Source: an uncultured Selenomonadaceae bacterium
Lineage (GTDB): Bacteria; Bacillota; Negativicutes; Selenomonadales; Selenomonadaceae
Length of the DNA stretch: 64,000 nucleotides
Direction of reading: 5' to 3'
Assembly (NCBI GenBank): GCA_905233135.1
Contig: CAJOCQ010000016.1
Span: forward strand, 1-64,000
Shown: piece by piece, positions 7,118 through 61,262 of the stretch
How positions within the stretch are numbered: the first letter of the stretch is position 1
Layout of the letters: each line of letters opens with the position of its first letter
Made by a program: the position numbers and the translations under genes
Notes under the pieces: model-generated
What the model saw: only the letters and a program-made list of their open reading frames with translations
Database searches by the model: none
Told to the model about the DNA's origin: nothing

Positions 7118-7290
7118 CGCCCGTCACTAAAGCCGCAGCTTGCGGTAATGCTGATGCGTAGGAAAAAGTAGAGGCCCCAAAGGGGGCCACCAGTTATTAA
7201 GAGCGTACAGAAACCGAGCGGCACTGACGGGCGGTAAAGTTTTTCTTTCTTTGGTACTTTCTTGCTTTTTTCAAAAAGAAAGAAAGTACT
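7118..7290 (+). repeat. Modular structured intergenic repeat, copy A
   Basis: This 260-base gap has no gene. Closing stem CGCCCGTC (7118) / GACGGGCG (7226-7233); inner stem GCCGC / GCGGC; hairpin GGCCCC-AAAG-GGGGCC; then a T-rich/A-rich hairpin (GTACTTTCTT ... AAGAAAGTAC) ending near 7289. The core is nearly identical to copies B, D and E. Confidence 0.85.
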
Positions 7291-7316
7291 TAAAAAAATT
7301 ATTTTAATAAAAAAAT

Positions 7317-9137
7317 TTAACTTTGCAACCAGAGCATTTGATATTTTTCCATTTGCCTTGCAACGTGTTGCAGAATCGATTTATAAAGCGCGGGATTTTG
7401 GCGCGTCGCACTTTCAAAAGTTTCAAGCGGAATTAAAAGCAGTACAGCTTTTTCAGTCAAAACTTCAGCAGAAATTGTGGCGCGACGTTTGTCCAAGAAA
7501 ATATTTTCGTTAAGCAAGCCGCCCGCTTTAATAATATCAAGAGCATTAAACCAACCGTCGCCCGTATCCAAATTGCGCGCCAATTTCCCTTCCACCACGA
7601 AAATTAAATTTTTATCCAAAATATCGCCAAAAATCCTGTCGCCTTCAAAACGCGTAACAAGTTTTGAATTTTCAACAAGAATAGCCGTCGCGCCCGTTGA
7701 TTCACTTTGCAACATTTTATTTTTGCTGATAAAGTCGATAATAATTTTGCGTTCGTCTTCCTGCGCACTTTCTTTAACAGCGGAAATTTCGGCGGCAAGT
7801 TTTTGGATATTTGAAAGAAAATCTAAAAAAGGTGCGTTCCAATAAACTAACATTTGACGCAAAATCAAATTGTACAAATTCGCCAAACGTTCGCCCGCGT
7901 TGGGGAAAAATTGATTTTTATCGTACTGAAAAGAAATTGACAATTCCTGCACGTTGTACTGAAAATAAACGCCGAGTTTCATCCCCTGCGCATCCCAAGA
8001 ATTTCTTTCTACAATTTTGCCTTCGGGCGTTGCCTCAACTTGCGAAAAAGTTCTTTCGTCGGCCGTAAAATCTAAAAAGCTCAAAAAATGGTCAAATAAA
8101 TTTCCCCTGCGCGAAGTCAAATTTTCAATAGCCGTCCAATCAAAAAAGCTGTACGGTTGCGAAACTACCAACTGCTTGAATTGCTGATTCACGATATTTG
8201 CAAGCGTCATACTTTGAGAACTTTTCAAGCGCACGGGCATTAAATTTAGCGAAAAATCCTGCGCAGATTTTTTATTGGCGGTAAGTTGGCAAAATGCAAC
8301 GTCCGAATTTTTATTTATCGCCTGCAACAAAAATCCCCAAGCAGTTTGCAAAGTTACCAATAACATCACGCGGCTTGATTGCGAATTAACGCGCAAATCA
8401 GAAAGAATATCTGCAGGAATTTTTGTACGGAAAATCTCGGCATTGTACGCGCCGGAAATTTTTTTGGAAAATGGAATTTGCGGCGGCGCGGGTAAATTCT
8501 TCAAAATGTCCGCCCAATATTCTTTGACGCGGTTTTCAATTTGTGGGATTTTAATATTTTTTGGCGGCAAAATTTTTTTGTACTTCTCGTCATTAAAAAC
8601 ATCCTTGAAAAAACTTTCGGCATTGAAACGTTGCGAAATTAACTGCGAAACTGTTATTAAAACGGCGGCTTCATTTTCGTCCGTACGAAAAATTGAAAAC
8701 CTAATCAAATTGCCGCGCACAATGTCAAAATCTAAACGCCTGTCAGCTTCCAAAATTTTTATCAAAGTTTCGTCAAGCTCTTCACCTTCGAGTTTCAAAA
8801 CACGAAAAACAATTTCAGAAATAATTTCACGATTGGTGAAAATAACTTTCAAAGTGCGCGCCCCGACGTTACAGAAATTTGCACGAAAATTTTTATCTTC
8901 GTCAACCAAATTTCTAACGGCGCGGTTAAATTTCAGCGGCGAAATTTCGCCCTTAACCTTGTACAAAGTTTGCACGCAAAAGTGTGGCGATATAAAATTT
9001 TTTCTGTCAAAAAAGCGGCTTTCTTCGGGCGTCAATTCTTGAATTTCCGTAATTTGATTTTGACTGTATCCAGAATCTAAAACAAACTTGCCGTAAATTT
9101 GCTCAAGGATATTTTTTTCTTCAGCCGTAATTTCCAA
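7317..9137 (-). CDS. Condensation-like (NRPS C-domain fold) protein fused to a cyclic-nucleotide-binding domain
   Basis: About 606 residues. Residues roughly 40-460 follow the two-lobed acyltransferase fold of NRPS condensation domains (ISPLKFNRAVRNLVDEDKNFRAN; later VKEYWADILKNLP and NLMPVRLKSSQSMTLANIV). The catalytic HHxxxDG position instead reads SQLISQR, so normal condensation activity is unlikely. Residues about 490-600 resemble a cNMP-binding/Crp-type beta-roll (FEGDRIFGDIL, VVEGKLARNL, RRATISAEVLTEKAVLLLIP). No helix-turn-helix is visible. The start is taken as TTG 9137 with GGAAG 8 bases upstream; TTG 9152 and GTG 9146 are alternatives. It may be a sensor or binding protein; no partner enzymes are adjacent. 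Confidence 0.6.
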   Translation of the reverse strand: MEITAEEKNILEQIYGKFVLDSGYSQNQITEIQELTPEESRFFDRKNFISPHFCVQTLYKVKGEISPLKFNRAVRNLVDEDKNFRANFCNVGARTLKVIFTNREIISEIVFRVLKLEGEELDETLIKILEADRRLDFDIVRGNLIRFSIFRTDENEAAVLITVSQLISQRFNAESFFKDVFNDEKYKKILPPKNIKIPQIENRVKEYWADILKNLPAPPQIPFSKKISGAYNAEIFRTKIPADILSDLRVNSQSSRVMLLVTLQTAWGFLLQAINKNSDVAFCQLTANKKSAQDFSLNLMPVRLKSSQSMTLANIVNQQFKQLVVSQPYSFFDWTAIENLTSRRGNLFDHFLSFLDFTADERTFSQVEATPEGKIVERNSWDAQGMKLGVYFQYNVQELSISFQYDKNQFFPNAGERLANLYNLILRQMLVYWNAPFLDFLSNIQKLAAEISAVKESAQEDERKIIIDFISKNKMLQSESTGATAILVENSKLVTRFEGDRIFGDILDKNLIFVVEGKLARNLDTGDGWFNALDIIKAGGLLNENIFLDKRRATISAEVLTEKAVLLLIPLETFESATRQNPALYKSILQHVARQMEKYQMLWLQS

Positions 9138-9214
9138 GCCAATCACTTCCAATAAAAATTTTTAATTTGTAAATTCCCTGTTAAAATTTAAAAACCTTCA
9201 AATTGCAGGAATAG

Positions 9215-9243
9215 TTACAGCTTTTCAAGAATTAAACTGTAAA
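9215..9243 (+). promoter_or_regulatory. Possible promoter for the SPFH cluster
   Basis: TTACAG (9215-9220), 17 bases, TGTAAA (9238-9243), ending 23 bases before the SPFH gene ATG. Both boxes are imperfect. Confidence 0.4.
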
Positions 9244-9266
9244 ATTTTTTGAAGGAGCAATGCACT

Positions 9267-10673
9267 ATGGGATTTATTCAAGCGGCAATAGGCGCGGCGA
9301 GCGGCGTACTCGGCGATCAGTGGAAAGAGTATTTTTATTGCGACAGTTTAAGCGCGGATATTTTGGTTGCGAAGGGACATAAACGCACAAAGCGCGGCAG
9401 TTCAAACGCGGGCGACGACAACATTATTACTCAAGGTTCACTCGTTGCAGTAAACAACGGGCAATGTATGATGATTGTTGAAAACGGCAAAGTTGTGGAC
9501 TTCATTGCAGAGCCGGGCGAATACAAATACGACAGAGGCACCGAGCCTTCACTTTTCAGCGGCGGAAATTTAGCCGTCAACATTCAAGAAATTTTTTATC
9601 AAATTGGACATCGTTTCACATTCGGCGGCGATACCGGCAAAGACCAGCGCATTTATTATTTCAACACCAAAGAAATTACCGGCAACAAATACGGCACGCC
9701 TACGCCCATTCCGTTCCGCGTCGTCGATAATAATATTGGCTTGGACGTTGACATTTCCATAAAATGTTTCGGCTCCTACAGCTACAAAATCGTTAATCCT
9801 ATTCTGTTTTATACAAATGTTTGCGGCAACGTTGCAGATACTTTCAACCGCGAAGAAATTGACAGGCAACTGAAATCTGAATTAATGACGGCACTTCAGC
9901 CCGCCTTTGCAAAAATTTCTGAAATGGGTATTCGCTATAGTTCACTCCCCGCACATACAACGGAAATTGCGGACGCCCTTAACCAAGTTTTGAGCAAAAA
10001 ATGGGGCGAATTGCGCGGCTTGCAAATTGTTTCTTTCGGCGTGTCGAATGTCAGCGCAAATGAAGAAGACGTTGCAATGATTAAGGAAATGCAACGCACG
10101 GGCGCGCTCAGAAATCCCGCAATGGCGGCGGCACATTTAACCAACGCGCAAGCGACAGCTATGCAAACTGCAGCGGGTAATACTGCAGGCGCGGCTATTG
10201 GTTTTATGGGAATGAATATGGCGCAAAACGCGGGCGGACTCAACGCCAATAATCTTTTTGCACTTTCTCAACAACAACAAATGCAACAGCCGCAAGTTCA
10301 ACACCAAGCACCGCCTCAACCTGCCGGCTGGAAATGTGAACATTGCGGGCAAACAGGCAACAGCGGTAAATTCTGCGCGAATTGCGGCAAGCCTCAACAT
10401 ACGCACGAAGATAACGGCTGGAAATGCGAAAGTTGCGGGCACGAAGGCAATACCGGCAAATTCTGCGGAAATTGCGGCAAGCCGAAACCTTCAGCCGCCG
10501 ACGAATGGACTTGCTTAAAATGCGGCACTGTCAACAAAGGAAAATTCTGCGCAGATTGCGGTGCGCCTAAACCTGCCGCAAATTCCAATTCCAATGAATG
10601 GACTTGCCCGAGTTGCGGCACTGTAAACAAGGGCAGAAGATTTTGCGCCGAATGCGGCAAACCGCGCGGTTGA
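9267..10673 (+). CDS. SPFH-domain protein with four C-terminal zinc ribbons
   Basis: A 468-residue protein. Residues about 10-290 are an SPFH/virion-core-protein-like domain (WKEYFYCDSLSADILVAKG, VVDFIAEPGEYKYD, LQIVSFGVSNVSANEED). A low-complexity Q-rich linker follows, then four tandem zinc ribbons, each with two CxxC pairs (WKCEHCG...FCANCG, WKCESCG...FCGNCG, WTCLKCG...FCADCG, WTCPSCG...FCAECG). SPFH proteins form membrane-associated oligomeric scaffolds. The start at 9267 has GAAGGAG upstream. It leads a plus-strand run with another zinc-ribbon protein and a TPM-domain protein, a combination seen in other Firmicutes, so a shared membrane or quality-control role is likely. Confidence 0.82.
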   Translation: MGFIQAAIGAASGVLGDQWKEYFYCDSLSADILVAKGHKRTKRGSSNAGDDNIITQGSLVAVNNGQCMMIVENGKVVDFIAEPGEYKYDRGTEPSLFSGGNLAVNIQEIFYQIGHRFTFGGDTGKDQRIYYFNTKEITGNKYGTPTPIPFRVVDNNIGLDVDISIKCFGSYSYKIVNPILFYTNVCGNVADTFNREEIDRQLKSELMTALQPAFAKISEMGIRYSSLPAHTTEIADALNQVLSKKWGELRGLQIVSFGVSNVSANEEDVAMIKEMQRTGALRNPAMAAAHLTNAQATAMQTAAGNTAGAAIGFMGMNMAQNAGGLNANNLFALSQQQQMQQPQVQHQAPPQPAGWKCEHCGQTGNSGKFCANCGKPQHTHEDNGWKCESCGHEGNTGKFCGNCGKPKPSAADEWTCLKCGTVNKGKFCADCGAPKPAANSNSNEWTCPSCGTVNKGRRFCAECGKPRG

Positions 10674-10676
10674 TTT

Positions 10677-12575
10677 ATGGACGACGAAGAACTTTTTATT
10701 AAGTTGAACACTTGCTTTACGGCAGGTTATACAGTTCCGCAATTTTGCAAAGATTTAGGCATAAAAAAACCTTTATTTGTTACGGATAACATTGACAGCA
10801 TTATTAAAGGTCAAATTTTTTGGGAAATTTATTCTCAATTTTGCTTTGATAAATTTACAAAAATTAAACCTTGTTTCAGCTTGACTAAAAATGTGCTTGC
10901 CATTGATTTGTCTGTAAATTGCAGTATTGGTCCGCTGATTTTTTCGCCATTCTCTTCATTAAACTTGAAAGATTACGATAAAATTTTTTTATTAACGCTG
11001 AAAAAACAAGATATTTCCATTAACGCAGATATTGCTTATTTAGATGAATTTGCATGTACGTTTTTTATACGAACTTATGTTGAAATTCCGCTTCTGCACT
11101 TTATTCAAGCTCATCCAAAAATAAAAATGTTCGTTATGAATTATCCGGTTCTCAGTCAAAACCCGGAAAATACAGAAATGGAAAAACAACTTTTAAACGG
11201 CGAAATTTTCGGCGGATTTAAACTTATTCACGATATACGGAAAAAAATTGCAGAATCTCCAAATAAAAAAATTAAAACCCCCTACGATTTTTTAGGCTAC
11301 GATAATAAAACAGTTTATAAACTTTTGGAAATAGTTGGCGCAAAAACTTTGCCGAACGGAACAACAATATTGCCCGATAACTTTGACGAGCTTATTAACA
11401 TTCGCAACGGTAAACGCGCTACTGCTTACCAACCAAAAAATTACAAGAACAAAATTTATTTTTTGGGTAATTGCATATATTACGGCTTCGGCGTTCCATT
11501 TGATAAAACGGTTGAAAGTTGTTTGCAAAAATTATTGGTAGAAAATAATTTTCCTTACAGAGTCGAAAATGAATCACAATTTTTTAACGACAGGTACCAA
11601 GATTTATTTTACAATTTAAATAATTTGCCGGTACAAGACGGCGATATTATTTTTGTTTGTGTACATACTTTGCGAACGTATGGGGTTCCACATTTGGATT
11701 TAAGCGATTTTTTCCGCAGACCGCATAATTACGGAGAAGTTTTTGCTGACCAATATCATATAAATGAACTTGGGCATTCGGCGTTGGCAAAATTTTTCTT
11801 CCGATTTTTAGTTAAAAATAATTTTTTCAAAGACAGAGAGTTTAATTATCTTGCACCACCCCCGCCGCCTCGTCGTTACGGCATACCGCAAGAAAATTTT
11901 TACGGCAATTCAAATTTTATCGACAACAAAGATTTACAAAATTACAAAGAAAATCTGCGCAAAAAACGTTTAAAAATCGGCGCAATAGTTATGAACTGCA
12001 ACCCCTTTACTCTCGGACACAAATTTTTAATTGAATACGCGGCGGCAAAAGTTACAAAACTTTATATTTTTGTCGTCGAAGAAGATAAAAGCGAATTTAA
12101 ATTTGCTGACAGATTAAGGCTCGTTGAAAGCGGCGTTGAGGAAATTCCAAACGTCGAAGTTATTCCAAGCGGCAAATTTATTATTTCTCAAAAAACTTTC
12201 AGCGGTTATTTCAATAAAGAAAATCTTCAAGACGTTGCAGTTGATTCAAGCGAAGATGTAGAAATTTTCGCCCGTGAAATTGCGCCGACTTTGGGAATTA
12301 ACATTCGCTTTGCAGGCGCAGAACCTGAAGATACTGTAACTCGTCAGTACAACGAAAATATGAAAAATATTTTGCCGCGTTACGATATTGATTTTTGCGA
12401 AATTCCGCGCCGCGAAATTGACGGCGAAGTTATCAGCGCAAAATCTGTTCGCGCCGCGTTAAAAATTAGAGACTTTGAAAAAATTGCTAAACTCGTTCCC
12501 ATAACAACTTTGGAATTTTTGCGCAATAACTATGCACATTCTACCCCCCCCCATTTGTCGGTTGACGATAATTAA
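10677..12575 (+). CDS. SGNH-like plus CitC-like nucleotidyltransferase fusion protein
   Basis: 632 residues, starting three bases after the SPFH stop. The N-terminal about 250 residues are not recognised. Residues about 255-385 look like an SGNH/GDSL module: FLGNCIYYGFG as block I and DQYHINELGH as the Asp-His block. A proline-rich linker (APPPPPRR) leads to a C-terminal domain resembling citrate lyase ligase (CitC)-type adenylyltransferases: VMNCNPFTLGHKFLIEYA contains the (T/H)xGH nucleotide-binding motif and ISAKSVRAAL the second motif. No citrate lyase genes are nearby, so a different acceptor is likely. A run of nine C (12544-12552) sits eight codons before the stop. Confidence 0.65.
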   Translation: MDDEELFIKLNTCFTAGYTVPQFCKDLGIKKPLFVTDNIDSIIKGQIFWEIYSQFCFDKFTKIKPCFSLTKNVLAIDLSVNCSIGPLIFSPFSSLNLKDYDKIFLLTLKKQDISINADIAYLDEFACTFFIRTYVEIPLLHFIQAHPKIKMFVMNYPVLSQNPENTEMEKQLLNGEIFGGFKLIHDIRKKIAESPNKKIKTPYDFLGYDNKTVYKLLEIVGAKTLPNGTTILPDNFDELINIRNGKRATAYQPKNYKNKIYFLGNCIYYGFGVPFDKTVESCLQKLLVENNFPYRVENESQFFNDRYQDLFYNLNNLPVQDGDIIFVCVHTLRTYGVPHLDLSDFFRRPHNYGEVFADQYHINELGHSALAKFFFRFLVKNNFFKDREFNYLAPPPPPRRYGIPQENFYGNSNFIDNKDLQNYKENLRKKRLKIGAIVMNCNPFTLGHKFLIEYAAAKVTKLYIFVVEEDKSEFKFADRLRLVESGVEEIPNVEVIPSGKFIISQKTFSGYFNKENLQDVAVDSSEDVEIFAREIAPTLGINIRFAGAEPEDTVTRQYNENMKNILPRYDIDFCEIPRREIDGEVISAKSVRAALKIRDFEKIAKLVPITTLEFLRNNYAHSTPPHLSVDDN

Positions 12576-12655
12576 AATTATCAGCTGTATTTTTATTTTG
12601 CAACAAAATTTAAAATCTGCGCAAGTGCGTAAAACCTAATTTTGAAGGTGATTAA

Positions 12656-13756: not shown

Positions 13757-13768
13757 GGCGGTGCGGTT

Positions 13769-14572: not shown

Positions 14573-14596
14573 AATATTTTACAAAGAAAAAAAGAC

Positions 14597-14788
14597 GGTG
14601 CGCAGGATGCGCCGCTAAGCGTACTTAAAAAGCCGCCCGCTTATGCACTCTGCTAACACATTTGCGCTTGTCTTACTTTGCTGAATCGCTTGGGCGTTTG
14701 CAATTTCTATAAAGCCCTGTGCGCTAGCGGGCGGCGATTCTTTCTTTTAGGTGGCTTTTCTTTCTTCTAAAGAAAGAAAAACCACATT
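14597..14788 (+). repeat. Modular structured intergenic repeat, copy F
   Basis: Fills the 262-base gap. It contains hairpin GGTGCGC-AGGA-TGCGCC, a long closing stem GCCGCCCGCT (14632) / AGCGGGCGGC (14726-14735) with GCAC/GTGC just inside, and the terminal hairpin GTGGCTTTTCTTTCTT...AAGAAAGAAAAACCAC. The interior between the closing arms differs completely from copies A-E, so only the scaffold is kept. Confidence 0.75.
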
Positions 14789-14834
14789 TATAATAAAATT
14801 ATTTTTGTAAGCATATTTCAGGAATTAGATAAAA

Positions 14835-15773: not shown

Positions 15774-15792
15774 GAAATTTGGAGGATTTTAA

Positions 15793-16464: not shown

Positions 16465-16489
16465 TAAAAATTTTTGAGAGGAAAAAATT

Positions 16490-24042: not shown

Positions 24043-25206
24043 ATGGAGAACAAGAATTTGCTGACAGGGATTTTAATGCTCGGCGTTTTCGGAATATTAA
24101 ATACCGAAATGGGCTTTATCGGAATATTGCCGCACATCGCCGAAAATTTCAACGTAACGATAGTTGAGGCGGGCTTGTTAATAAGCGGCTTTGCACTCGG
24201 CGTAGCAATAGCGGGACCGACAATGCCGCTGTTTTTCTCAAGGTTCAACAGAAAATATGTAATGCTGTTGGTGTTGGGCGTTTTCACAATCTGCAACACC
24301 ATTGCAATTTTCACGACGAATTTTAATGTACTTTTGGCGGCGCGCGTGTTGCCGGCGTTTCTGCACCCCGTTTATTGCTCAATGGCTTTTACGGTAGCTG
24401 CAATGTTGGCAGGTCCAAAAAACGCGCCAAAGGGCGTAGCGAAAATAAATATAGGTGTATCGGCGGGAATGGTTGTCGGCGTGCCAATTTCAAACTTTTT
24501 GGCGGAAAATATTTCATTAAGCGCGGCAATGGTATTTTTTGCGGCAGTAACAGCGGCGGCGTTAATTGCAACAATAATTTTTGTACCGTCAATGCCCGTT
24601 AGAGAAGTGCTGAGTTACGGTTCGCAGTTGAAAGTTTTGACAGAAAAAATAACTTGGGTATCAATTTTGGCAATAATTTTTGTGAACGGCTCAATATTCG
24701 GCGTGTTTAATTATATGGCGGATTATTTGGCGAGCGTTGCACAATTTGCGCCAATGTTTGTAAGCGGCTTGCTTTTCGTGTACGGAATTTGCAATATTTT
24801 CGGCAGCATTTGGGCGGGCAATTTATTAACGAACGTCCCGAAGTCAACAATAAAAATTTTCCCGTTTTTGGTAGTTGCAATTTACGGCTTGTTATTCGTT
24901 GCAAGCAATCAGATTTTCTACGCGGTGCTGATAGTAATTTGGGGATTGTTGGGCGGCGTCAATGCAAACATTACGCAATTTTGGATGAGTCGCACTGCGC
25001 CGCAAGCTCCCGATTTTGCGAACGGATTATTTTTGACTTCGGCAAATTTGGGCGTAGTAATTGCAACGCCTTTCAGCGGAATTTTTATAAACAGTTTCGG
25101 TATGGATTATGTAATTTTCGGCGGCGTGGTATTTGCACTTTGCGCGGCGGCAGTTTTCTGGACGCAAATGACGCACGCCAAAATAAATCCTTTCAGGGAG
25201 GCGTAA
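24043..25206 (+). CDS. MFS transporter
   Basis: 387 residues with about 12 hydrophobic segments. It shows the drug:H+ antiporter-type (AraJ/YdhP-like) pattern: GILNTEMGFIGILPHIAENF, the motif A region in FFSRFNRKYVMLL and GVSAGMVVGVPISNFLAE. It is likely an inner-membrane exporter of sugars or small drugs. Its ribosome site lies in a hairpin, so translation may be controlled. It stops three bases before the next gene, a cyclophilin-like protein. Confidence 0.88.
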   Translation: MENKNLLTGILMLGVFGILNTEMGFIGILPHIAENFNVTIVEAGLLISGFALGVAIAGPTMPLFFSRFNRKYVMLLVLGVFTICNTIAIFTTNFNVLLAARVLPAFLHPVYCSMAFTVAAMLAGPKNAPKGVAKINIGVSAGMVVGVPISNFLAENISLSAAMVFFAAVTAAALIATIIFVPSMPVREVLSYGSQLKVLTEKITWVSILAIIFVNGSIFGVFNYMADYLASVAQFAPMFVSGLLFVYGICNIFGSIWAGNLLTNVPKSTIKIFPFLVVAIYGLLFVASNQIFYAVLIVIWGLLGGVNANITQFWMSRTAPQAPDFANGLFLTSANLGVVIATPFSGIFINSFGMDYVIFGGVVFALCAAAVFWTQMTHAKINPFREA

Positions 25207-25620: not shown

Positions 25621-25697
25621 TTTAGGGTTCCAGGGTCCCAAGGAATAGGGATTAAAGAAAAATCACAAATCCCTAATCCCTTTACCCTGGAACCCTT
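25621..25697. repeat. Snap-back GGTTCC repeat, copy 1
   Basis: AGGGTTCCAGGG...AATAGGGATTA on the left pairs with TAATCCCTTTACCCTGGAACCCT on the right, a near-perfect long hairpin directly after the cyclophilin-like stop. A similar element is at 57237-57311. Confidence 0.75.
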
Positions 25698-25799
25698 TTC
25701 TTGCTTCGGAAAAAGAAAGTACATTTATAATTTTTAACTTGCTAGAAAATTTTTTAAGTGATAATATTTCTTCCAAGAAAAATTAAGGGAGGTGTAAAA

Positions 25800-29509: not shown

Positions 29510-29682
29510 CGCCCGTCTCTAAAGCCGCAGCTTGACGTTTTGTTGGAGCGTAGGAAAAAGTAGAGGCCCCAAAGGGGGCCACCTGTTATTAAGAGCGTTC
29601 CGGACCCGAGCGGCCCTGACGGGCGGGAAGTTTCTTTCTTTTGGGCGGGTTTTCTTTCTTTACAAAGAAAGAAAAGCCGTGT
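29510..29682 (+). repeat. Modular structured intergenic repeat, copy B
   Basis: Main occupant of the 331-base gap 29480-29810. Closing stem CGCCCGTC (29510) / GACGGGCG (29618-29625), inner stem GCCGC/GCGGC, GGCCCC-AAAG-GGGGCC hairpin, and the terminal hairpin built from TTTTCTTTCTTT and AAAGAAAGAAAA. The rest of the gap is A/T-rich and holds the flavodoxin promoter. Confidence 0.85.
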
Positions 29683-33126: not shown

Positions 33127-33184
33127 TAAGTGCCTCCTGTTTCTTGGAATGTGATTATAAAATTTATAATTTTTTAATTTAAAT

Positions 33185-33372
33185 GTTCTTTCTTTTTTCC
33201 AAAGCAAAAAAAGAAAGAACCAAAGAAAAAGTGCTTTACCGAAATTGCGCCCGTTCAACTTTTTTCGCGTCGAGCATTGCAGTAAGTTTAATTCTTCGCC
33301 GCGTTTAATTTTAGTTGCACCAAGTTTAGTAGGCGACAAAAAAAGACGTGAACGGGCGAGTTATCGCAATTT
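33185..33372 (-). repeat. Modular structured intergenic repeat, copy G (divergent interior)
   Basis: Occupies most of the 276-base gap between the GrpE-like and Hsp70 genes. Arms AAATTGCG.CCCGTTC (33244) and GAACGGG...CGCAATTT (to about 33372) pair; a T/A-rich hairpin (GTTCTTTCTTTTTT...AAAAAAGAAAGAAC) lies at 33185-33220. The interior is unlike copies A-E. It is in minus orientation, that is, in the direction of the surrounding genes. Confidence 0.7.
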
Positions 33373-41910: not shown

Positions 41911-42037
41911 TTCTCGGGCACGGCGCACACGGACGTGCGCCGCCCGCAATAAGTCGCAGGATGCGACTTCTGCGGGGTGGAAGTTTTTCTTTCTTTGCTA
42001 AGCGTTTCTTTCTTTTTACAAAAAGAAAGAAATGCTG
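41911..42037 (+). repeat. Modular structured intergenic repeat, copy H
   Basis: Hairpin CGGGC-AC-GGCGCAC-ACGGAC-GTGCGCC-GCCCG, then AAGTCGC-AGGAT-GCGACTT, then AGCGTTTCTTTCTTTTT-ACA-AAAAGAAAGAAATGCT. It lacks the long closing-stem module of copies A-E. The remaining sequence to the metA start (42038-42171) shows no recognisable riboswitch or gene. Confidence 0.75.
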
Positions 42038-42171
42038 TATTTTCAAAAAGATTAAACATTTATAAACACCGATTATAAAAAAACTTCCTGCTTATTAGCC
42101 GCGCCGCTCAAAAAAGGATTATCTTTACAAAGCGCAGAATATTAAAAAAAAATCCCGAAGGAATGATAATT

Positions 42172-46503: not shown

Positions 46504-46770
46504 AGAGGCGCACACGGACGTGCGCCTCGTACCCTCGCGCAGGACGCGCGGCACTTGCTACTTTACAAGCTTGAAAGTGCAACCCGTCAATGGTGGTAAT
46601 ACGCCCGTCACTAAAGCCGCAGCTTGACCTTTTTTAAGAGCGTGGGAAAAAGTTTGCGCCCCAAAGGGGGCGTACGGAATACGAGCGTATTTGAACCGAG
46701 CGGCCCTGACGGGCGAAGAGTTTTTTTCTTTTAGGTGGCTTTTCTTTTTTTACAAAAAAAGAAAAACCAC
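46504..46770 (+). repeat. Modular structured intergenic repeat, copy C (full set of modules)
   Basis: Main content of the 326-base gap 46503-46828. In order: hairpin GAGGCGCAC-ACGGAC-GTGCGCCTC (46504), CGCGC-AGGAC-GCGCG hairpin followed by GCACTTGCTACTT, a TGCAACCCGTCAAT segment, closing stem CGCCCGTC (46602) / GACGGGCG (46708-46715) with GCCGC/GCGGC inside, a CGCCCC-AAAG-GGGGCG hairpin whose outer pair is swapped relative to copies A and B, and a terminal T/A hairpin ending near 46770. Confidence 0.85.
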
Positions 46771-48278: not shown

Positions 48279-48452
48279 CGCCCGTCTCTCAGCCGCAGCG
48301 CGTGGTAATGCTGAGGCGTAAGAAAAAGTAGAGGTCCCAAAGGGGGCATCCTGTTACTACGTGCGTACAGAAACCGAGCGGCCCTGACGGGCGGGAAGTT
48401 TTTTTCTTTTGGGCGGGTTTTCTTTTTTTACAAAAAAAGAAAAGCCGTGTTA
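48279..48452 (+). repeat. Modular structured intergenic repeat, copy D
   Basis: Closing stem CGCCCGTC (48279) / GACGGGCG, inner GCCGC/GCGGC, GGTCCC-AAAG-GGGGCA hairpin, and a terminal hairpin of TTTTCTTTTTTT and AAAAAAAGAAAA. Differs from copy B mainly in the variable segment after GCCGC. Confidence 0.85.
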
Positions 48453-51480: not shown

Positions 51481-51549
51481 AAAAATTACCTCCAATTTAA
51501 TATAAACTTATGTAATAATACCCCCCCCCGTTTTTGTTTTGTCAACAAT

Positions 51550-51579
51550 TTGGCAAGCAACGGTTATCAGTGTTATAAT
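51550..51579 (+). promoter_or_regulatory. sstT promoter
   Basis: TTGGCA (51550-51555), 18-base spacer, TATAAT (51574-51579); GGAGG precedes the ATG at 51611. Confidence 0.7.
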
Positions 51580-51610
51580 AAATTTCTAAAAAATTTTTGG
51601 AGGTTATTTA

Positions 51611-53563: not shown

Positions 53564-53566
53564 TTT

Positions 53567-55003: not shown

Positions 55004-55015
55004 AAAAATTTCCCC

Positions 55016-56032
55016 TTACAACTTTACAACAACTTTGCCTGCGCGGCGCGTTTCGTCATTCGCCAAAACTTCAGGCAACTTTTCAAGCGGTACAACGCTT
55101 GTAATTATCCCGTCAAAACTAATCTTGCCGCGTGAAATTAATTCGACTGCGCGCGGGAATGTGTACGGATTGATAAACGATGAAGTAACGGTTAATTCTT
55201 TTTTGAAAATCATATCAGGCTTAATTTTCAATTCGGCATCAGGCGAAACAAGCCCGAAAAACATAACAGTTGCCTTTTTGCCTGCAACGCGCAGAGCGTC
55301 AGCTTGCGTGCGTACACTTCCTACACATTCGATAACGCAATTTACATTCTGCGTAACGCCCGCCAAAAATTCGTCAAGATTTTCTGCAAGCGGATTAACA
55401 ACCAAATCTGCGCCGAGTTTTAACGCCAAATTTCTTTTTTCTTCGACAGGTTCAGAAAGAATCACAAGCCCCGCGCCCGCCAACTTCGCAAGCTGCAAGG
55501 AAATCATTCCGATTGGTCCGCCGCCCATAACTAAAACCGTATCGCCGTGTTTAATCTTGCATAAATCCATACCGTGTACGCAACACGAAACAGGCTCGCT
55601 CATCGCCGCGTACAGCAGATTTAAATTTTTGGGAACTTTGAAAACGTGGCTTGCCTTCATTGCAACAAATTCTGCAAATCCGCCGTCAACCGTCGTACCA
55701 ACGCCGATATTATCTGTGCAAAAATGTTCCATTCCGTTTCGGCAAAAATAACATTTCCCGCACATAATGTTGGGGTCGCCGCTCACGTGGTCGCCGACTT
55801 GCACATTTTTAACCGCGCCGCCGATTTTTTCAACAACGCCCGAAAATTCGTGTCCGGGAATAAGCGGCGGCTTTACTGCAAACGCGCCGCCTTCCGCGTT
55901 GAAAATGTGTACGTCCGTCCCGCAAACGCCGCAATACGCAACTTTTATCAAAACTTCGTCCGCGCCAATTTCCCGTACAGGTACATTTTCAATTTTCATA
56001 TCTTGTTTACCGTGATAAACTGCCGCCTTCAT
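55016..56032 (-). CDS. Zinc-dependent medium-chain alcohol/polyol dehydrogenase
   Basis: 338 residues. Catalytic zinc ligands in GVCGTDVH and GHEFSG, structural zinc cysteines in CGKCYFCRNGMEHFC, and the NAD-binding VMGGGPIGMISLQLAKLAGAG define the sorbitol/threonine/galactitol-phosphate dehydrogenase group. Substrate is likely a sugar alcohol or its phosphate. GGGAGG precedes the ATG. It lies between a vWA protein and cobQ with short gaps on the same strand. Confidence 0.88.
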   Translation of the reverse strand: MKAAVYHGKQDMKIENVPVREIGADEVLIKVAYCGVCGTDVHIFNAEGGAFAVKPPLIPGHEFSGVVEKIGGAVKNVQVGDHVSGDPNIMCGKCYFCRNGMEHFCTDNIGVGTTVDGGFAEFVAMKASHVFKVPKNLNLLYAAMSEPVSCCVHGMDLCKIKHGDTVLVMGGGPIGMISLQLAKLAGAGLVILSEPVEEKRNLALKLGADLVVNPLAENLDEFLAGVTQNVNCVIECVGSVRTQADALRVAGKKATVMFFGLVSPDAELKIKPDMIFKKELTVTSSFINPYTFPRAVELISRGKISFDGIITSVVPLEKLPEVLANDETRRAGKVVVKL

Positions 56033-56051
56033 TTTTTTAGCCTCCCAAAAA

Positions 56052-56831
56052 TTATTTGTCGCCCCAATTTTCGCTGACAGAGCCGCTTTCTCTTACTGCA
56101 GCTGCGGCTTCGTCCATTTTCTCAAAAGTTTTTCTTACGCCTTTTTTGTCTGCAGAATAATTCATTGCGTGTTTGCCGCTAATCCCCATTGATTCAGCTT
56201 CAGAAACAGAATCGATATTCGCACCCATAAAAATATAGTTCCAATTATAATCTTTGGTAGTTTTTTCAATCATAGCTTTAACGGTTGCCTTGTTGTATTC
56301 TTGGCTTGCGTTTTCGAGCCCGTCAGTCATAATCAAAACGAGCACGCGCCTTTTTTCGGGGCAAATTTTTTCTTTTTGCATTTTGCCTGCAACGTCTGTT
56401 AAAGTCATTCCTACTGCGTCAAGCAAAGCAGTTGTACCGCGCGCGTAATATTCGGCTGAAGTCAATTCGGGAATTTCGTTAAGGTCAACTTTATCGGCAA
56501 TTTTAATGTATTCGTTGTCAAAAAGCACGGTAGTAACTTCGACTTTGCCGGGCGTTTCCTTTTGCTTTTGTAAAAAAGAATTGTAGCCGCCGATAGTATC
56601 TTCAGCCAAATTTGACATTGAGCCGGAGCGGTCAAGAATGCAAATTATTTGTACGGGCTCGGCGGAAGTTTTTTCACAATCCGCCGAATGTTTATGCACG
56701 GGCAAAATATTTTCTTTGACAGTTTCAACGGGCGGCTTAGGTTTAACGCTGCGCGAATATGCAGGACTTTCAAAACTTACGCCGCAAAAAATTATTAAAG
56801 TTGCCAACGCGCCCAATAAAAATTTAAACAT
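56052..56831 (-). CDS. Exported vWA-domain protein
   Basis: 259 residues. Signal peptide (MFKFLLGALATLIIFCGVSF), a short His-containing linker, then a vWA domain with MIDAS residues DRSGSMS (about 70-76), the Thr in GTTALLDAV and Asp in TDGLEN. The pattern CILDRSGSM...GGYNSFL is that of the stand-alone vWA proteins found in many anaerobes. It may bind divalent metal and a partner protein in the periplasm. First gene of a minus-strand run; the ATG at 56831 has AAGGAAGG upstream. Confidence 0.83.
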   Translation of the reverse strand: MFKFLLGALATLIIFCGVSFESPAYSRSVKPKPPVETVKENILPVHKHSADCEKTSAEPVQIICILDRSGSMSNLAEDTIGGYNSFLQKQKETPGKVEVTTVLFDNEYIKIADKVDLNEIPELTSAEYYARGTTALLDAVGMTLTDVAGKMQKEKICPEKRRVLVLIMTDGLENASQEYNKATVKAMIEKTTKDYNWNYIFMGANIDSVSEAESMGISGKHAMNYSADKKGVRKTFEKMDEAAAAVRESGSVSENWGDK

Positions 56832-56919
56832 ACGCCTAACCTTCCTTCGACGAAATTTTTTATAAATTTTATAGTATATCGTAAAAATTGTCCAGAAATT
56901 TACCAACCGCAGTAAGGGC

Positions 56920-56959
56920 TTGTAAAATTAGTGCGGTAGTGTTATAGTGCGGTAGTGTT
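56920..56959 (+). promoter_or_regulatory. Promoter with a duplicated 14-bp operator-like site
   Basis: TTGTAA (56920-56925), 17-base spacer, TATAGT (56943-56948). Two exact copies of AGTGCGGTAGTGTT at 56930-56943 and 56946-56959, 16 bases apart, flank and overlap the -10 box. Confidence 0.6.
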
Positions 56960-56991
56960 GTAGTAAAAAAATTGCAAAAGGAGAAATTATT

Positions 56992-57237
56992 ATGTGCAAA
57001 GAATGCGGTTGCGGCGAAGGCGGCGCGGGAATTACGCGCCTGCAATTCACGGCGAACGGCTACACCGACAACAGCGCAAAAACCGTTGAAAAAAATCTGC
57101 TCGGCTTGGCGGGCGTTATGTATGTTCATATTCACGCGCACGACGGCGAAACTACCATTGATTATAATCCCGGCAAAACTAAACTTTCTGAAATTATCGG
57201 CGTCTTTGCCAAAAATGACGTTGAGCCTTTGTTGTAA
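56992..57237 (+). CDS. Small Cys-rich heavy-metal-associated-like protein
   Basis: 81 residues. It begins MCKECGCGEGG, a four-residue-spaced cysteine cluster, followed by a ferredoxin-like alpha/beta pattern (TRLQFTANGYTDNSAKTVEKNL split by loops; VMYVHIHAHDGETTIDY) resembling HMA-type metallochaperones but with the metal cysteines at the extreme N-terminus. Probably binds a metal ion in the cytoplasm. AAAGGAG precedes the ATG. Its promoter holds a duplicated operator-like site, which suggests regulated, perhaps metal-dependent, expression. Confidence 0.7.
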   Translation: MCKECGCGEGGAGITRLQFTANGYTDNSAKTVEKNLLGLAGVMYVHIHAHDGETTIDYNPGKTKLSEIIGVFAKNDVEPLL

Positions 57238-57311
57238 GGTTCCAGGTTTCCAAGGATATAAGGATTAGTGAAAATCCCTCTTCCCTTTCCACTGGAACCT
57301 TGGAACCCTAA
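57237..57311. repeat. Snap-back GGTTCC repeat, copy 2
   Basis: GGTTCCAGG.TTCCAAGG on the left pairs with CC.CTGGAACCTTGGAACC on the right around GATTAGTGAAAATCC. Starts at the stop of the Cys-rich gene and ends just before the argF ribosome site. Confidence 0.75.
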
Positions 57312-57336
57312 ATTTCGACTGAAAGGAGAAATTTTC

Positions 57337-58266
57337 TTGTTAAAAGGAAAAGATTTAATCTCAATACACGATTTAAGCGCGGACGAAGTTTTTGAAATTT
57401 TGGACTGCGCGGCGAATTTAAAAGTTATGCAAAAAAATAATATCCCGCACCAATATTTGAAGGGCAAAACTTTAGGGATGATTTTTGAAAAATCTTCGAC
57501 GCGCACGCGCGTTTCATTTGAAGTTGGAATTTTCCAACTCGGCGGCACGGGTTTATTTTTATCGAACAAAGATTTACAGCTCGGGCGCGGCGAACCTATC
57601 AAAGATACCGCGCGCGTTTTGTCTCGTTACCTTGACGGGATTATGATTCGCACTTTTGGGCACGACAGAATTTTGGAACTTGCGAAATTTGCAAATGTGC
57701 CTGTTATCAACGGCTTGAGTGATTTACTGCATCCTTGCCAAGTTTTGACGGATTTATTGACGATTCGCGAACACAAGGGCAAAAATTTCAGAAGTTTAAA
57801 AATGGCGTACGTCGGCGACGGCAATAATATGACAAATTCCTATTTGTACGGCGCGGCGAAAGTCGGAATGCATTTAACAGTTGCAACGCCCGCAAATTAC
57901 AAGCCGAACGCTGAAGTTTTTGAAAATGCATTGACTGACGCCGAAGAAACTAAAGCCGAATTGAGCTGGACAGAAAATCCCGTTGACGCCGTGAAGGACG
58001 CCGACATTATTGCAACCGACACTTGGGCAAGTATGGGGCAGGAAGCCGAACACGACGAACGCAAGAAAATTTTTGCACCGTATCAAGTCAACAAAGAACT
58101 TTTGAAACACGCAAGCAAAAACGCGATTGTACTTCATTGCTTGCCGGCGTATCGCGGCGAAGAAATTACTGACGAAGTTTTTGAAAACAACGCGCACGTA
58201 ATTTTTGAAGAGGCTGAAAATCGCCTGCATACTCAAAAGGCAATTATGGCTTTGACAATGAGCTGA
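57337..58266 (+). CDS. argF: Ornithine carbamoyltransferase
   Basis: 309 residues. FEKSSTRTRVSFEVG is the carbamoyl-phosphate site (STRTR), FGHDRILELA and NGLSDLLHPCQVLTDLLT (HPxQ) follow, then YVGDGNNMTNSYLYGAAKVG and the ornithine loop VLHCLPAYRGEEI (HCLP). Converts ornithine and carbamoyl phosphate to citrulline in arginine synthesis. The TTG at 57337 follows GAAAGGAG by eight bases; the upstream ATG at 57268 lies inside a repeat and is rejected. No other arg gene is nearby. Confidence 0.95.
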   Translation: MLKGKDLISIHDLSADEVFEILDCAANLKVMQKNNIPHQYLKGKTLGMIFEKSSTRTRVSFEVGIFQLGGTGLFLSNKDLQLGRGEPIKDTARVLSRYLDGIMIRTFGHDRILELAKFANVPVINGLSDLLHPCQVLTDLLTIREHKGKNFRSLKMAYVGDGNNMTNSYLYGAAKVGMHLTVATPANYKPNAEVFENALTDAEETKAELSWTENPVDAVKDADIIATDTWASMGQEAEHDERKKIFAPYQVNKELLKHASKNAIVLHCLPAYRGEEITDEVFENNAHVIFEEAENRLHTQKAIMALTMS

Positions 58267-58268
58267 AA

Positions 58269-58503
58269 AAGCGGCGAACGTGATGTGAGCCGCCCTTCGC
58301 GCAGGACGCGCGGCATTTTCCCTTTACTAATCTGAAATAAAAAAATGTCGCCCGTCCTCTCAGCGCAGCTGCCCGCCGCCTTAGTGCGTACAGAAACTAT
58401 AATGCAGACTCGACAGTTCTAAGAGCGTTACCAACGCAAGGCGCACAGGACGGGCGACGCTTCTTTCTTTGGTTCTTTCTTTCTACTAAAGAAAGAAAGA
58501 ACA
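58269..58503 (+). repeat. Modular structured intergenic repeat, copy I
   Basis: Covers most of the 327-base gap 58267-58593. It has a GCGGC...GCCGC hairpin, then CGCGC-AGGAC-GCGCG followed by GCA, a 12-bp closing stem GTCGCCCGTCCT (58347) / AGGACGGGCGAC (58447-58458) with a divergent interior, and a terminal hairpin GTTCTTTCTTTCT...AAAGAAAGAAAGAAC. Confidence 0.8.
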
Positions 58504-58536
58504 TTTAATAAAATTTAAAAACTCGCTTTAATCAAG

Positions 58537-58565
58537 TTGTAACTTGTATTTGACTATGTTAAAAT
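58537..58565 (+). promoter_or_regulatory. Promoter of the SCIFF peptide gene
   Basis: TTGTAA (58537-58542), 17-base spacer, TAAAAT (58560-58565), 28 bases before the ATG. Confidence 0.6.
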
Positions 58566-58593
58566 TGCTACAGAAAAATTTGGAGGTGCTATT

Positions 58594-58740
58594 ATGAAAC
58601 ACATTAAAACAGTAACAAAACCCGTACTGCAAGAAACTTTGAAAAACGGCGGTTGCGGCGAATGCCAAGCTTCTTGCCAATCCGCTTGCAAAACAAGTTG
58701 CACTGTCGGTAACCAAGTTTGCGAACGTACAAAAAAATAA
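58594..58740 (+). CDS. scfA: SCIFF ranthipeptide precursor (six cysteines in about 45 residues)
   Basis: 48 residues beginning MKHIKTVTKPVLQETLKN, with cysteines at 21, 24, 28, 32, 36 and 43 in CGECQASCQSACKTSC and NQVCE. This is the highly conserved SCIFF peptide, which a radical SAM/SPASM maturase converts to a thioether-bridged ranthipeptide. GGAGGTG seven bases upstream, its own promoter and a strong terminator show it is a real single-gene unit. The maturase gene, normally adjacent in Clostridia, is absent here: the next gene is a chemoreceptor on the opposite strand. Confidence 0.93.
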   Translation: MKHIKTVTKPVLQETLKNGGCGECQASCQSACKTSCTVGNQVCERTKK

Positions 58741-58769
58741 TCTGCGCAAAATTTTTTGCAAAAAAAATC

Positions 58770-58798
58770 AGCCGTCGGCAAAAACCGGCGGCTTTTTT
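58770..58798 (+). terminator. Rho-independent terminator after SCIFF gene
   Basis: AGCCGTCGG-CAAAAA-CCGGCGGCT followed by six T. Confidence 0.9.
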
Positions 58799-58820
58799 AG
58801 TTTCAATTTTTAATTAATAC

Positions 58821-60806
58821 TTACATTTTAAATTTGCCGATAGCTTCCTGCATTTCTTCAGCAAGTTTAGCAAGTGATTGAGAGGCGGCTGCAATTTCTT
58901 CATTGGAGGCAGATTGAGTTTCAGTGTCGCTGGAAATTGAATTGGTATGTTCTGAAGTTTGGCGGCTTACTTCATTTATTGATTCAACTGCTTCAACTAT
59001 TCTTTGTGCGCCTTCAGAAACAGTTTTCATTGAAGTACCTATGCCCGACATATGTTGTTGAATACCGTCAACACGTTGCATAATTTGCTTGAATTGTTCG
59101 CCGACTTCCCTAATAGCTTCAGTACCTTCTTGAACGTCTTTTGTACCTGATTCCATAGCCTCGACGGCTTGTGCGGTATCGTGTTGAATTTGAGTAATTC
59201 TGTCGCGAATTTGTTCGGCTGAAGTTGCAGATTCTGAAGCAAGTTTTCTTACTTCTTCGGAAACAACGGCGAAGCCGCGCCCGTGTTCGCCCGCGCGCGC
59301 CGCTTCAATAGCCGCGTTGAGTGCAAGCAAATTTGTTTGTTCGGAAATAGCCGAAATTGCCTCGACGATTTGTCCGATTTGTTGAGAACTTTCGCCAAGC
59401 TTTTTGACAACTTCTGCTGACGCCATAACGCTCTTTTCAATGTTGGTCATCTTACCGACTGCGGATTCCATAAGCTTTTCGCCGCGTTGTGCAGATTCGG
59501 CTGTTTCATTTGACGCCTTTGTAACAACTTTTGTTTTGTCTGACATTTTTTCAATATCTTCAAAAACAATGTCAACGCTTGCTTTTGCGGCATCAATATC
59601 TTCAAGTTGTGCACTCATATTCATATTGACTTCGCCGACTTTTTCTGCAACGTGAACCGAAGTATCAGCGGATTGTTGCGCACTTGCCGTTAATTGTTCG
59701 GAGGCGGCGGCGACTTGGTGCGCGGTAGTAGCCATTTTACTAATCAGCGTACGCAAGCCAGCGCTCATTGTGTTAAAAGCCTGCGACAATGTACCAATTT
59801 CATCTTGAGAATTAACAGCAAGGTCGGGGACACTCAAATTGCCTTTGGAAAGTTGAATTGCGTGATCTTGAAGTTTCGCAATAGGTCCTGTAAGGGAGCT
59901 TGACATTTTCAAGTTAAGTAAAACCATAACGATAAACGCAATAATTGCAATTACCGCGTAGGTTAAACGCATACTTCCAATAGCGGAAAATACAAAAGAT
60001 TCGTCAACAGCAATACCCAAAATCCAGTTGCTGGTCGGCAAAGTTGTATAGGCGAAAACGCGCGGCTTGCCGTTGGAGCTGTTATTAACAATGAAGTAAC
60101 CTTCGCCTTTTTCTAACATTTCGTTAAAGTGACTTGAAAGTCCCGGCAAATCTTGAATTGTTTTAATGTCAGCGTTTGCAAAAGAATCAGCCAAAACATT
60201 GCCATTTTTTTCAAGGATAAGAGCTTCACCTTGTCCGCGATACGTCATATTTTTAACTTTGTCTGCAAGTACGTCCAGCGTAATATCAACGCAAGTTGCG
60301 CCGACAAATTGGCTGTTAAATTTAATTGGCGTAACTACTGAAACAATTAATTTGCCTGTAAATTCGTCAACATAAGCATCAGAAAAAAATAAACCAGTTT
60401 CTTCGTCGCGTGCTTGCTTGTACCAAACTACCTCTGTAGTAGGGTCAATCTTGCCGGTAAAATCGCCCGCGTGATAGCCGCGAAAATGTTTGTCTTGAAG
60501 CCCGATAGTAACATCTAAAATTTCCTTATCGGAAGTTGTAAGAGACAATAAAGTAGGGTCTTTAATTCTTTCCATATCGCCAATATTGCTAAGCAAATTA
60601 GCCAAGTATTCGGAAGAATACGCTTTTTGTACAAGCCAACCGTTTAACTCTCTGCCCTTGCTGCCAACAACTGCGTTCATTTCTTGTTCAATGGTTTCAG
60701 ACAACGCTTTTTCCGAAATGTAGTAGCCTATTATCGCTACAACCGTAACCAAAACGCCCGCAATAACCGCCAAGAATGTAAATTTCTGTTTCAGATTCAA
60801 TTCCAT
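58821..60806 (-). CDS. Methyl-accepting chemotaxis protein with dCache sensor
   Basis: 661 residues. Membrane helix 1 at about 10-30, periplasmic dCache-like domain at about 35-275 ([43 protein letters not shown] split by loops), membrane helix 2 ([17 protein letters not shown]), HAMP (about 300-355) and the long signalling coiled coil with the tip [25 protein letters not shown]. Senses an extracellular ligand, often amino or organic acids, and controls CheA. No CheW-binding pentapeptide tail is seen. The ATG at 60806 has AAGGAAGGTG upstream. No other motility gene is in the window. Confidence 0.93.
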
Positions 60807-60982
60807 TAAAAGCACCTTCCTTTACAAATTGCATAATAAAAATTTGAGCTAAAATTATTGCCTATAACATTAAATCACTTCCAATATTTTAAACAACCGT
60901 AAAAATTTATTTTTTGGATTGGGAAAAATTCCCGCTCCTTTTTGCCGAAAAGTTAATTATTTTTAAGTTTTAATATTTTAAA

Positions 60983-61262
60983 TGTGGTTTTTCTTTCTTT
61001 AGGAAGAAAGAAAAGCCACCTAAAAGAAAGAAACTCTTCGCCCGTCAGGGCCGCTCGGTTTCTGTACGCTCTTAATAACAGGCGGCCCCCTTTGGGGCCT
61101 CTACTTTTTCCTACGCATCTGAGTTACCGTGCGCTGCGGCTTTAGTGACGGGCGTATTACCAGCATTGACGGGTTGCATTTTAATTTTACGAAGTAACAA
61201 GTGCCGCGCGTCCTGCGCGAGGGGTATTGGCGGCTGCGCGTCACGCTTGCCGCCTTTTTTTA
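60983..61262 (-). repeat. Modular structured intergenic repeat, copy E (full set of modules, minus strand)
   Basis: Most of the 539-base gap 60807-61345. On the minus strand, in order: hairpin GGCGGC...GCCGCC, CGCGC-AGGAC-GCGCG plus GCACTTGTTACTT, TGCAACCCGTCAAT, closing stem CGCCCGTC (plus-strand 61147-61154) / GACGGGCG, GGCCCC-AAAG-GGGGCC, and GTGGCTTTTCTTTCTT...AAGAAAGAAAAACCAC. Very similar to copy C. The remaining 60807-60982 is A/T-rich leader of the chemoreceptor gene with no other recognisable feature. Confidence 0.85.

Follow-up and report, generated by a model that had tools for sequence, protein, structure and literature searches.

Passages of Holder et al. (PMC4666352) define class IV intrastrand triplexes, in which a Hoogsteen strand, a pyrimidine tract (Y) and a purine tract (R) follow one another on a single strand (Hoogsteen-Y-R), and state that pyrimidine types can form in RNA and purine types cannot. 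In the literature that we consulted, earlier predicted bacterial intrastrand triplexes came without evidence of selection on the third strand; the natural variation of the repeat family described here supplies such evidence. The family lies in a window of 64,000 nucleotides (the whole stretch of DNA analysed: positions 1 to 64,000 of the forward strand of contig CAJOCQ010000016.1, assembly GCA_905233135.1) from an uncultured Selenomonadaceae bacterium of the rumen, and each element joins a body of hairpins to a 3' tail of triplex type. Triplexes of class IV have been predicted before; we did not meet the composite of body and tail in the open-licence papers covered, mainly at the level of titles and the beginnings of abstracts.

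A preliminary description of the window, made from its letters alone, had proposed a modular, structured, multicopy intergenic family with compensatory changes and had left undecided whether the copies are mobile repeats, RNAs or transcript ends. That outline stands, the positions and strands given for nine copies are all correct, and the tail-bearing dispersed repeat family is confirmed as real, with far more than nine copies. The best reading of the composite element is a dispersed REP-like repeat kept as a folded single strand. We put the probability at about 0.55 that it is a REP/BOX-like extragenic element whose selected unit is one self-folded strand, with the triplex tail as a clamp, that has spread downstream of genes. 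The preliminary interpretation as a whole is partly supported.

The tail is the most widely shared part of the element. It had been taken for a T-rich/A-rich hairpin; the hairpin is there, and a third, mirror strand 5' of it had been overlooked. This pyrimidine strand, Y1, lies just 5' of the hairpin formed by the pyrimidine tract Y2 and the purine strand R; it mirrors Y2 and matches R in parallel, base for base, so that the strand order is that of class IV. In the copies at 46504 and 48279, for example, Y1 is TTTTTTTCTTTT, Y2 is TTTTCTTTTTTT and R is AAAAAAAGAAAA, so that Y1 both mirrors Y2 and complements R in parallel. An alignment of 29 copies shows that changes in the hairpin are matched in the pyrimidine tract immediately 5' of it. 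A second tail class, with GCAC ahead of Y1, has tracts of T4, T5 and T6 in Y1 beside A5, A6 and A7 in R. Variants in other species of the genus Quinella are all parallel (e.g., TTTCTTTTT with AAAGAAAAAG, TTTTCTCTTT with AAAAGAGAAAG, CTTTTCTTT with GAAAAGAAA), and between species C and G shift jointly in all three strands. The Y1·R-Y2 pattern is consistent with the signature of an intrastrand pyrimidine-motif triple helix.

Quinella (Selenomonadaceae) is the host genus of the family, and the source genome is one of its members (G000). With the copy at 29510 as query, BLAST gave 53 alignments, 40 of them long, in its 2.45 Mb, a total that is a lower bound, with 40 of 178 first-look candidates scored. 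A tail scan of 464 kb, made up of the window, the 40 kb that follow it on its contig and 360 kb from a different contig, found 41 triplex-type tails, one of which is the same hairpin read from the other strand; the scan skips the copy at 7118 owing to a mismatch in Y2. Matches to a single tail pattern range from 0 to 141 per genome. The further copies that the preliminary description had proposed to look for genome-wide are therefore numerous.

Is the third strand itself under selection? The parallel pattern T4CT3 ahead of CTTTCTTTT...AAAAGAAAG has 355 matches in 39 of 66 Quinella genomes; its antiparallel counterpart, T3CT4 ahead of the same hairpin, has no exact match in the 66 genomes. This count is independent of the orientation and register choices made for the 100 tails described below. 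A hairpin survey of stretches and loci from 26 genomes, some of them picked because a match was already known there, yielded 121 hairpins in 16 genomes, found irrespective of Y1. A C-containing pyrimidine run lay 1 to 10 bases 5' of the hairpin on one strand only in 100 of the 121, on both strands in 4 and on neither in 17, and only the 100 oriented tails (13 genomes, one element counted twice) entered the later tests. In each of the 100, the best of eight 3'-anchored registers gives 7 or more parallel triplets, and in this they are of class IV (six or more T·A-T and C·G-C triplets, with the third strand running parallel to R), 21 of the 121 hairpins being unoriented.

Since orientation had been set by the run and the register chosen, shuffled and reversed controls were given the same register freedom. 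Summed over 39 tail types, the triplet run reached 363, compared with 293 ± 7 (maximum, 321) for shuffled Y1 and 257 for reversed Y1, and 26 of the 32 asymmetric types had a parallel run longer than the reversed one. C in Y1 and G in R stood together 58 times and apart 8 times (50 and 37 with Y1 reversed), a coincidence fraction of 0.88 versus a mean of 0.63 and a maximum of 0.79 in 1,000 shuffles. At the next triplet, which the selection did not force, T goes with T-A and C with C-G (p 9e-9 at 89 places, in a table that omits places with another pair or with A or G in Y1). Selenomonad places (n = 48) had T with T-A in 11/11 cases and C with C-G in 15/22. In another genus of the family, nine fetched loci with R = AAAGAAAAG have T3CT4 as Y1 in six cases, which is what the parallel direction demands, and T4CT4 in three, which fits both directions.

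One potential explanation for the three-way match is that it is a by-product of low-complexity tracts and of stem covariation from palindrome correction, with no triplex selected. The tracts are rich in T and poor in C, there is hardly any variation in the core stems of the source genome's main type, and shuffled Y1 still match well. Against this stand the 355 parallel matches versus none antiparallel, the lower scores of the shuffled and reversed controls, and a mirror repeat that is kept in step, and we regard the by-product as extremely improbable. Because we know of no copying or templating process that keeps a mirror tract in step, selection on the three-stranded fold is the simplest reading. 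The triplex presumably forms in the cell.

Besides these triplets, a G-C pair above the core has G as the base 5' of Y1 in 7/11 cases in other phyla and 7/14 in Selenomonads. G at G-C pairs keeps the mirror symmetry going past the T/C triplets, and a simple triplet rule leaves it unexplained.

The copies in the window, with the strand on which they read, are as follows.

7118..7290, plus: copy A; outer stem 7118-7125/7226-7233; hairpin 7173-7188; tail Y1 7240-7252, Y2 7256-7271 (one mismatch), R 7273-7286
14597..14785, plus: copy B; AGGAT-loop hairpin 14598-14614; outer stem 14634-14640/14727-14733 with a different interior; tail Y1 14738-14748, Y2 14756-14766, R 14770-14780
25630..25733, plus: tenth copy, truncated; long hairpin, then a tail without Y1 and without the start of Y2
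29510..29678, plus: copy C; outer stem 29510-29517/29618-29625; hairpin 29565-29580; tail Y1 29631-29642, Y2 29650-29661, R 29664-29675
33184..33358, minus: copy D; outer stem 33351-33358/33248-33255 with a different interior; tail of the class with GCAC ahead of Y1, Y1 33222-33231, Y2 33207-33219, R 33186-33198
41921..42038, plus: copy E, compact genus-wide form; hairpin A (loop ACGGAC) 41921-41942; outer stem; hairpin B (loop AGGAT) about 41951-41969; tail Y1 41984-41996, Y2 42005-42017, R 42020-42032
46504..46770, plus: copy F, longest form; hairpins with loop ACGGAC 46505-46528 and loop AGGAC about 46535-46551; core with outer stem 46602-46609/46708-46715 and hairpin 46657-46672; tail Y1 46721-46732, Y2 46740-46751, R 46754-46765
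48279..48446, plus: copy G; outer stem 48279-48286/48386-48393; tail Y1 48399-48410, Y2 48418-48429, R 48432-48443
58269..58503, plus: copy H; GUGA-type GC hairpin at the 5' end; AGGAC-loop hairpin 58297-58313; outer stem 58349-58356/58449-58456 with a different interior; tail Y1 58460-58470, Y2 58473-58484, R 58490-58501
60984..61254, minus: copy I; GUGA-type hairpin about 61229-61254; AGGAC-loop hairpin 61204-61220; core with outer stem 61147-61154/61039-61046 and hairpin 61084-61099; tail Y1 61022-61033, Y2 61004-61014, R 60989-60999

The stretch at 25630-25733 is a decayed tenth copy (19.5 bits, E 0.011 in the model search) with a tail of class D, and copy E scores 81.4 bits (E 4.5e-17) with model R1, among whose 41 rows it is itself included. 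The outer stem, the GGCCCC-AAAG-GGGGCC hairpin and the AGGAY loops named in the preliminary description are present. Its features are real, and only its copy letters fail to match the listed order: the loop ACGGAC, assigned to C and H, occurs in the copies at 41911 and 46504; the variant CGCCCC-AAAG-GGGGCG, assigned to C, occurs in the copy at 46504 (46657-46672); and the unrelated interiors, assigned to F, G and I, are those of the copies at 14597, 33185 and 58269. Elsewhere in the window, 24043-25206 encodes a major facilitator superfamily efflux pump whose best match, well under the curated cutoff, is the Cmx/CmrA chloramphenicol-efflux family.

The common body consists of two hairpins on stems that vary yet stay paired; their loops, which are strand-specific, read C-ANGGAY-G (CsrA-like) in one and C-NGGAY-G or C-GUGAY-G in the other. 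A search blind to loop sequence found 159 hairpins of at least six pairs 5' of Y1 in 99 distinct elements; 132 had GGA or GUGA loops, 26 had others and 1 had the reverse-strand TCC, and 20 of the 99 elements had no GGA/GUGA hairpin. In the compact element (43 found, 41 aligned), hairpin A is followed by a GC outer stem around hairpin B and then by the tail. The loop of hairpin A is typically A-N-GGA-Y closed by C-G; its 100% pairing reflects how the rows were picked, as each had to show a loop of this kind on a stem of at least six pairs, though in 6 of its 7 pairs both bases change from row to row. Outside this row selection, 86% of the cells of hairpin B are paired, with double changes in 7/7 pairs, and 72% of those of the outer stem, with double changes in 4/6. 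The covariation check suggested by the preliminary description came out positive: across several species, the compact element scores 0.563, compared with 0.134 ± 0.014 after shuffling and no more than 0.110 with partners slid; of its parts, hairpin B and the outer stem alone are free of the row-selection effect.

Across 29 source-genome copies with the main type of core, none of the 15 pairs in its outer and inner stems varies, and the GGCCCC hairpin varies in 2/5 pairs. Because these stems hardly vary, covariation in this type comes almost only from the tail, and we did not accept the invariant stems as structural evidence. Tails, cores and 5' hairpins are mixed in many combinations, the long forms of the source genome carrying an extra core. 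The cargo exchange proposed earlier holds in so far as bodies and tails combine as modules; the usual body in relatives is two GGA/GUGA-loop hairpins, and no cargo gene was seen. We noticed no promoter in the element, in the course of work that included no systematic promoter search.

All nine window copies lie directly 3' of a same-strand listed open reading frame (at least 100 amino acids), and the overlap of copy D with a reading frame is limited to the TTG over-extension of one of them. Among the 100 oriented tails, 89 could be placed by simple gene calls and 11 were skipped: 47 were sense and 21 antisense in co-directional gaps, 17 lay in convergent gaps and 4 in divergent ones. Given the gaps of at least 120 bases (182 co-directional, 39 convergent, 57 divergent), divergent gaps were avoided (4 tails in 57 versus 85 in 221 other gaps, p 1e-6). 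In the co-directional gaps of the source genome, 27 tails were sense and 4 antisense (p 3e-5; a different set of gene calls gave 30 and 4), whereas the other Quinella species sampled had 20 sense and 17 antisense. Sense-strand function in the 3' untranslated region was not upheld as a general rule in species other than the source genome nor in other phyla, where orientation relied on crude gene calls; these placed 8 tails from other phyla and 11 from Selenomonads within reading frames and 9 and 7 at locus ends, all of which were set aside.

Placement 3' of genes would also suit multiplied bidirectional intrinsic terminators, with GC stems between an A-rich 5' side and a U-rich Y1. The 5' flank is 45% A and has a run of four A in 28/71 cases, and two hairpins of copy F are scored as terminators when the minus strand is read. 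An intrinsic terminator would have its U-tract immediately after the GC stem; Y1 begins a few bases after the outer stem. We nevertheless hold such terminators to be very unlikely: a stop at Y1 would mean that R is not made, which leaves the parallel Y1-R covariation without a reason, and ordinary terminators lie upstream of five of the copies inspected.

Orthologous intergenic regions, which the preliminary description had proposed to compare, include sites with and without the element. The copies at 46504 and 48279 are absent from the orthologous sites of two relatives (G004 and G006), and a third (G011) has an element at a site where a fourth (G002) has none. Mixed orientation, the range of copy number and these empty sites lead us to a mobile-like repeat, which some agent presumably moved. 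With regard to fragments of a known insertion sequence (IS) or MITE, the libraries searched showed no IS200-type transposase for the high-copy genomes, and no Rfam family corresponded. Rfam gave no match in the window at gathering score and none at E up to 1 in four relative loci; in 13 other-phyla loci it gave four, none at the element. A protein-based scan for relatives found none.

As movers, IS200/REP transposase and reverse transcriptase were rejected, for their presence had no association with copy number, and phage carriage was set aside, the viral contigs taken together having just 5 stretches. Degenerate heptamer direct repeats (TAGGCAC, TCAGGTG, GTAGTGA and ATTACGC types) adjoin elements, in the 5' flank of many cores (e.g., L001, L006, L014 and L028). 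Such repeats also lie near the stop codon of the orthologue of 46829 (L096/L097), where the G011 element seems to interrupt a run that is continuous in G002. Intergenic heptamer repeats are described in giant Beggiatoaceae in the part of PMC4679880 consulted.

How far does the family extend? The model of body plus tail matched 13 of 200 genomes of the class, drawn from a larger group, in three genera of one family, the matches in one genome (G072) being weak. The tail alone reaches further. A GTDB pattern scan returned at least 120 stretches, and by the record titles of the 80 listed the tail occurs in about ten phyla, in some by few matches. Among these 80 are Arcobacter, Pasteurellaceae, Deltaproteobacteria, Bacteroidetes including Chitinophaga and Rikenellaceae, Ignavibacteria, Oscillospiraceae and other Clostridia, Lentisphaeria, Spirochaetota, Hydrogenedentota, Moraniibacteriota and Peribacteria. 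Twenty-five other-phyla genomes had 1 to 37 tail matches each, with 0 or 1 in the backward control, and several had too few for a family, such as Spirochaetota (2 matches, control 1). At 12 other-phyla places that were folded, the tail follows longer imperfect hairpins and the Quinella body is absent.

At non-Selenomonad places (n = 41, several per genome in one case), Y1 had T in 12/19 cases at a T-A pair versus 2/22 otherwise (p 6e-4). We offer only tentatively, as a possibility well short of an even chance, that bacteria of about ten phyla, independently or by spread, carry a U·A-U RNA 3' clamp of MALAT1/ENE design on different structured bodies, and that in Selenomonadaceae it caps a CsrA-binding RNA repeated dozens to more than 100 times per genome. 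Four loci of Oscillospiraceae SIG686 (L215, L224, L233 and L256) have a similar frame and tail, with a long hairpin that differs between copies yet stays paired.

On our preferred reading of a dispersed, self-folded element, the 5' body would form one or two stable hairpins with fixed, C-G-closed loops (ANGGAY, NGGAY or GUGAY), the second within the GC outer stem. In the 3' tail, Y2 would pair with R as a hairpin and Y1 would fold into its major groove parallel to R, giving 7 to 14 T·A-T and C+·G-C triplets over a short basal stem. The tail would thus be a stable clamp on the 3' side of the strand, where it may protect or block, and elements would spread, mobile-like, into gaps downstream of genes. 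Because the loops are strand-specific, we lean toward RNA rather than single-stranded DNA as the acting strand.

Several observations weigh against this reading. The parallel run is not longer than the reversed one in 6 of the 32 asymmetric types; in other phyla, C stood with C-G in only 2/4 cases, and T versus C alone gave p 0.10; and palindrome correction by template switching could yield two-strand covariation, though not the parallel one. A mover was not found: Y1 transposase occurs in 7/66 and reverse transcriptase in 21/66 genomes, and neither in the six with most tail matches. By eye, the orthologous sites showed no obvious target duplications or terminal inverted repeats, for which no systematic search was made. 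The element strand is antisense to flanking genes in 21/68 co-directional gaps and at pgk-tpiA, so that either RNA or DNA may be what folds. This last copy lies in another genus, of which four genomes (L353, L355, L356 and L357, around 1500-1640, antisense to the operon) have one model match each in the same gap between the genes for phosphoglycerate kinase and triosephosphate isomerase, gene families checked in L353, with diverged flanks. Its loops and tail are kept, its stems are altered in pairs, and the element is better conserved than the flank in the four genomes. It looks like host function rather than parasitism; a single shared insertion plus some constraint would explain it.

Together with the strand bias in the source genome, the pgk-tpiA case speaks for some use by the host. 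Could the element, then, be a host-beneficial RNA at mRNA 3' ends or between cistrons, in which the triplex would stop 3'-to-5' exonucleases and the GGA hairpins would be binding sites for CsrA, so that copies act as stabilizers or as a distributed CsrA sponge? The 27-to-4 sense bias and the conservation of the pgk-tpiA element above its flank are in keeping with this, as are the loops. Hairpin A typically has a six-base, C-G-closed ANGGAY loop, some second hairpins are CAGGAYG, and GGA thus lies in a hairpin loop of the CsrA type (CANGGAYG/CAGGAYG), which second hairpins with GUGA lack. The portion of PMC7652899 consulted gives the CsrA consensus as RUACARGGAUGU, reports loops of six bases for most of the selected hairpins and names CAGGA(U/A/C)G loops for CsrB. 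Most of those selected hairpins had at most four contiguous pairs, whereas stems here have at least six, and long stems are possibly unfavorable for CsrA according to the same portion. The GUGAY loops have no GGA, orientation is nearly even in other Quinella species, and some copies (five loci, by eye) lie beyond an intrinsic terminator. The gene csrA is present in the source genome and in 24 of 28 genus genomes searched; it also occurs in genomes without a tail-pattern match (G003 and G013), and we rejected its presence as a discriminator. On balance, we consider a host RNA of this kind possible but unlikely.

A device at the DNA level, in which the single strand folds as an H-DNA-like triplex and serves as a replication or transcription roadblock or as a recombination site, would suit the mixed orientation outside the source genome. 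Passages of Holder et al. (PMC4666352) report that purine-motif triplexes on one strand accompany pyrimidine-motif ones on the other. The loops, however, are strand-specific, and in the source genome orientation mainly tracks local genes, with both contig strands used. The hairpin half is dispensable for classical H-DNA. We find such a device quite doubtful, and prefer the dispersed repeat selected as one folded strand.

The closest described systems are the intrastrand triplex motifs of bacterial genomes (class IV; PIT/BoxC/TMECO). The Quinella tail shares strand order and pyrimidine motif with class IV; in the part of PMC4666352 consulted, the known motif is likewise multicopy, intergenic and variable between strains. 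The motif studied there is a G/C-rich purine-motif triplex of class II, whereas the Quinella tail is A/T-rich and of class IV, has a hairpin body attached and covaries in parallel across species; the main text of that paper, the scope of this comparison, contains neither TTTCTTT nor AAAGAAAG. Sponge RNAs of the CsrB/RsmZ type share GGA in hairpin loops, in both CAGGAYG and ANGGAY forms. Unlike them, the Quinella element has one or two GGA hairpins per copy, dozens of dispersed copies and GUGA loops too.

By general description, REP/BIME and BOX elements are similarly short, modular, structured, extragenic, mostly 3' of genes and variable in copy number; the Quinella element differs in its third-strand tail, its ANGGAY/GUGAY loops and the absence of a Y1 transposase from high-copy genomes. 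The question of triple helices in bacteria now has defined sequences, natural variants and a wide range of copy number between close species. As generally known, the MALAT1/ENE RNA triple helices have the same order of U-tract, U-tract and A-tract, with the first as the Hoogsteen strand. The Quinella tail differs from these in being bacterial, in having a basal stem after R and C+·G-C triplets, and in belonging to a repeated family; if RNA is what acts, bacteria would have in this tail a counterpart of the RNA triplex stabilizers of eukaryotes and viruses.

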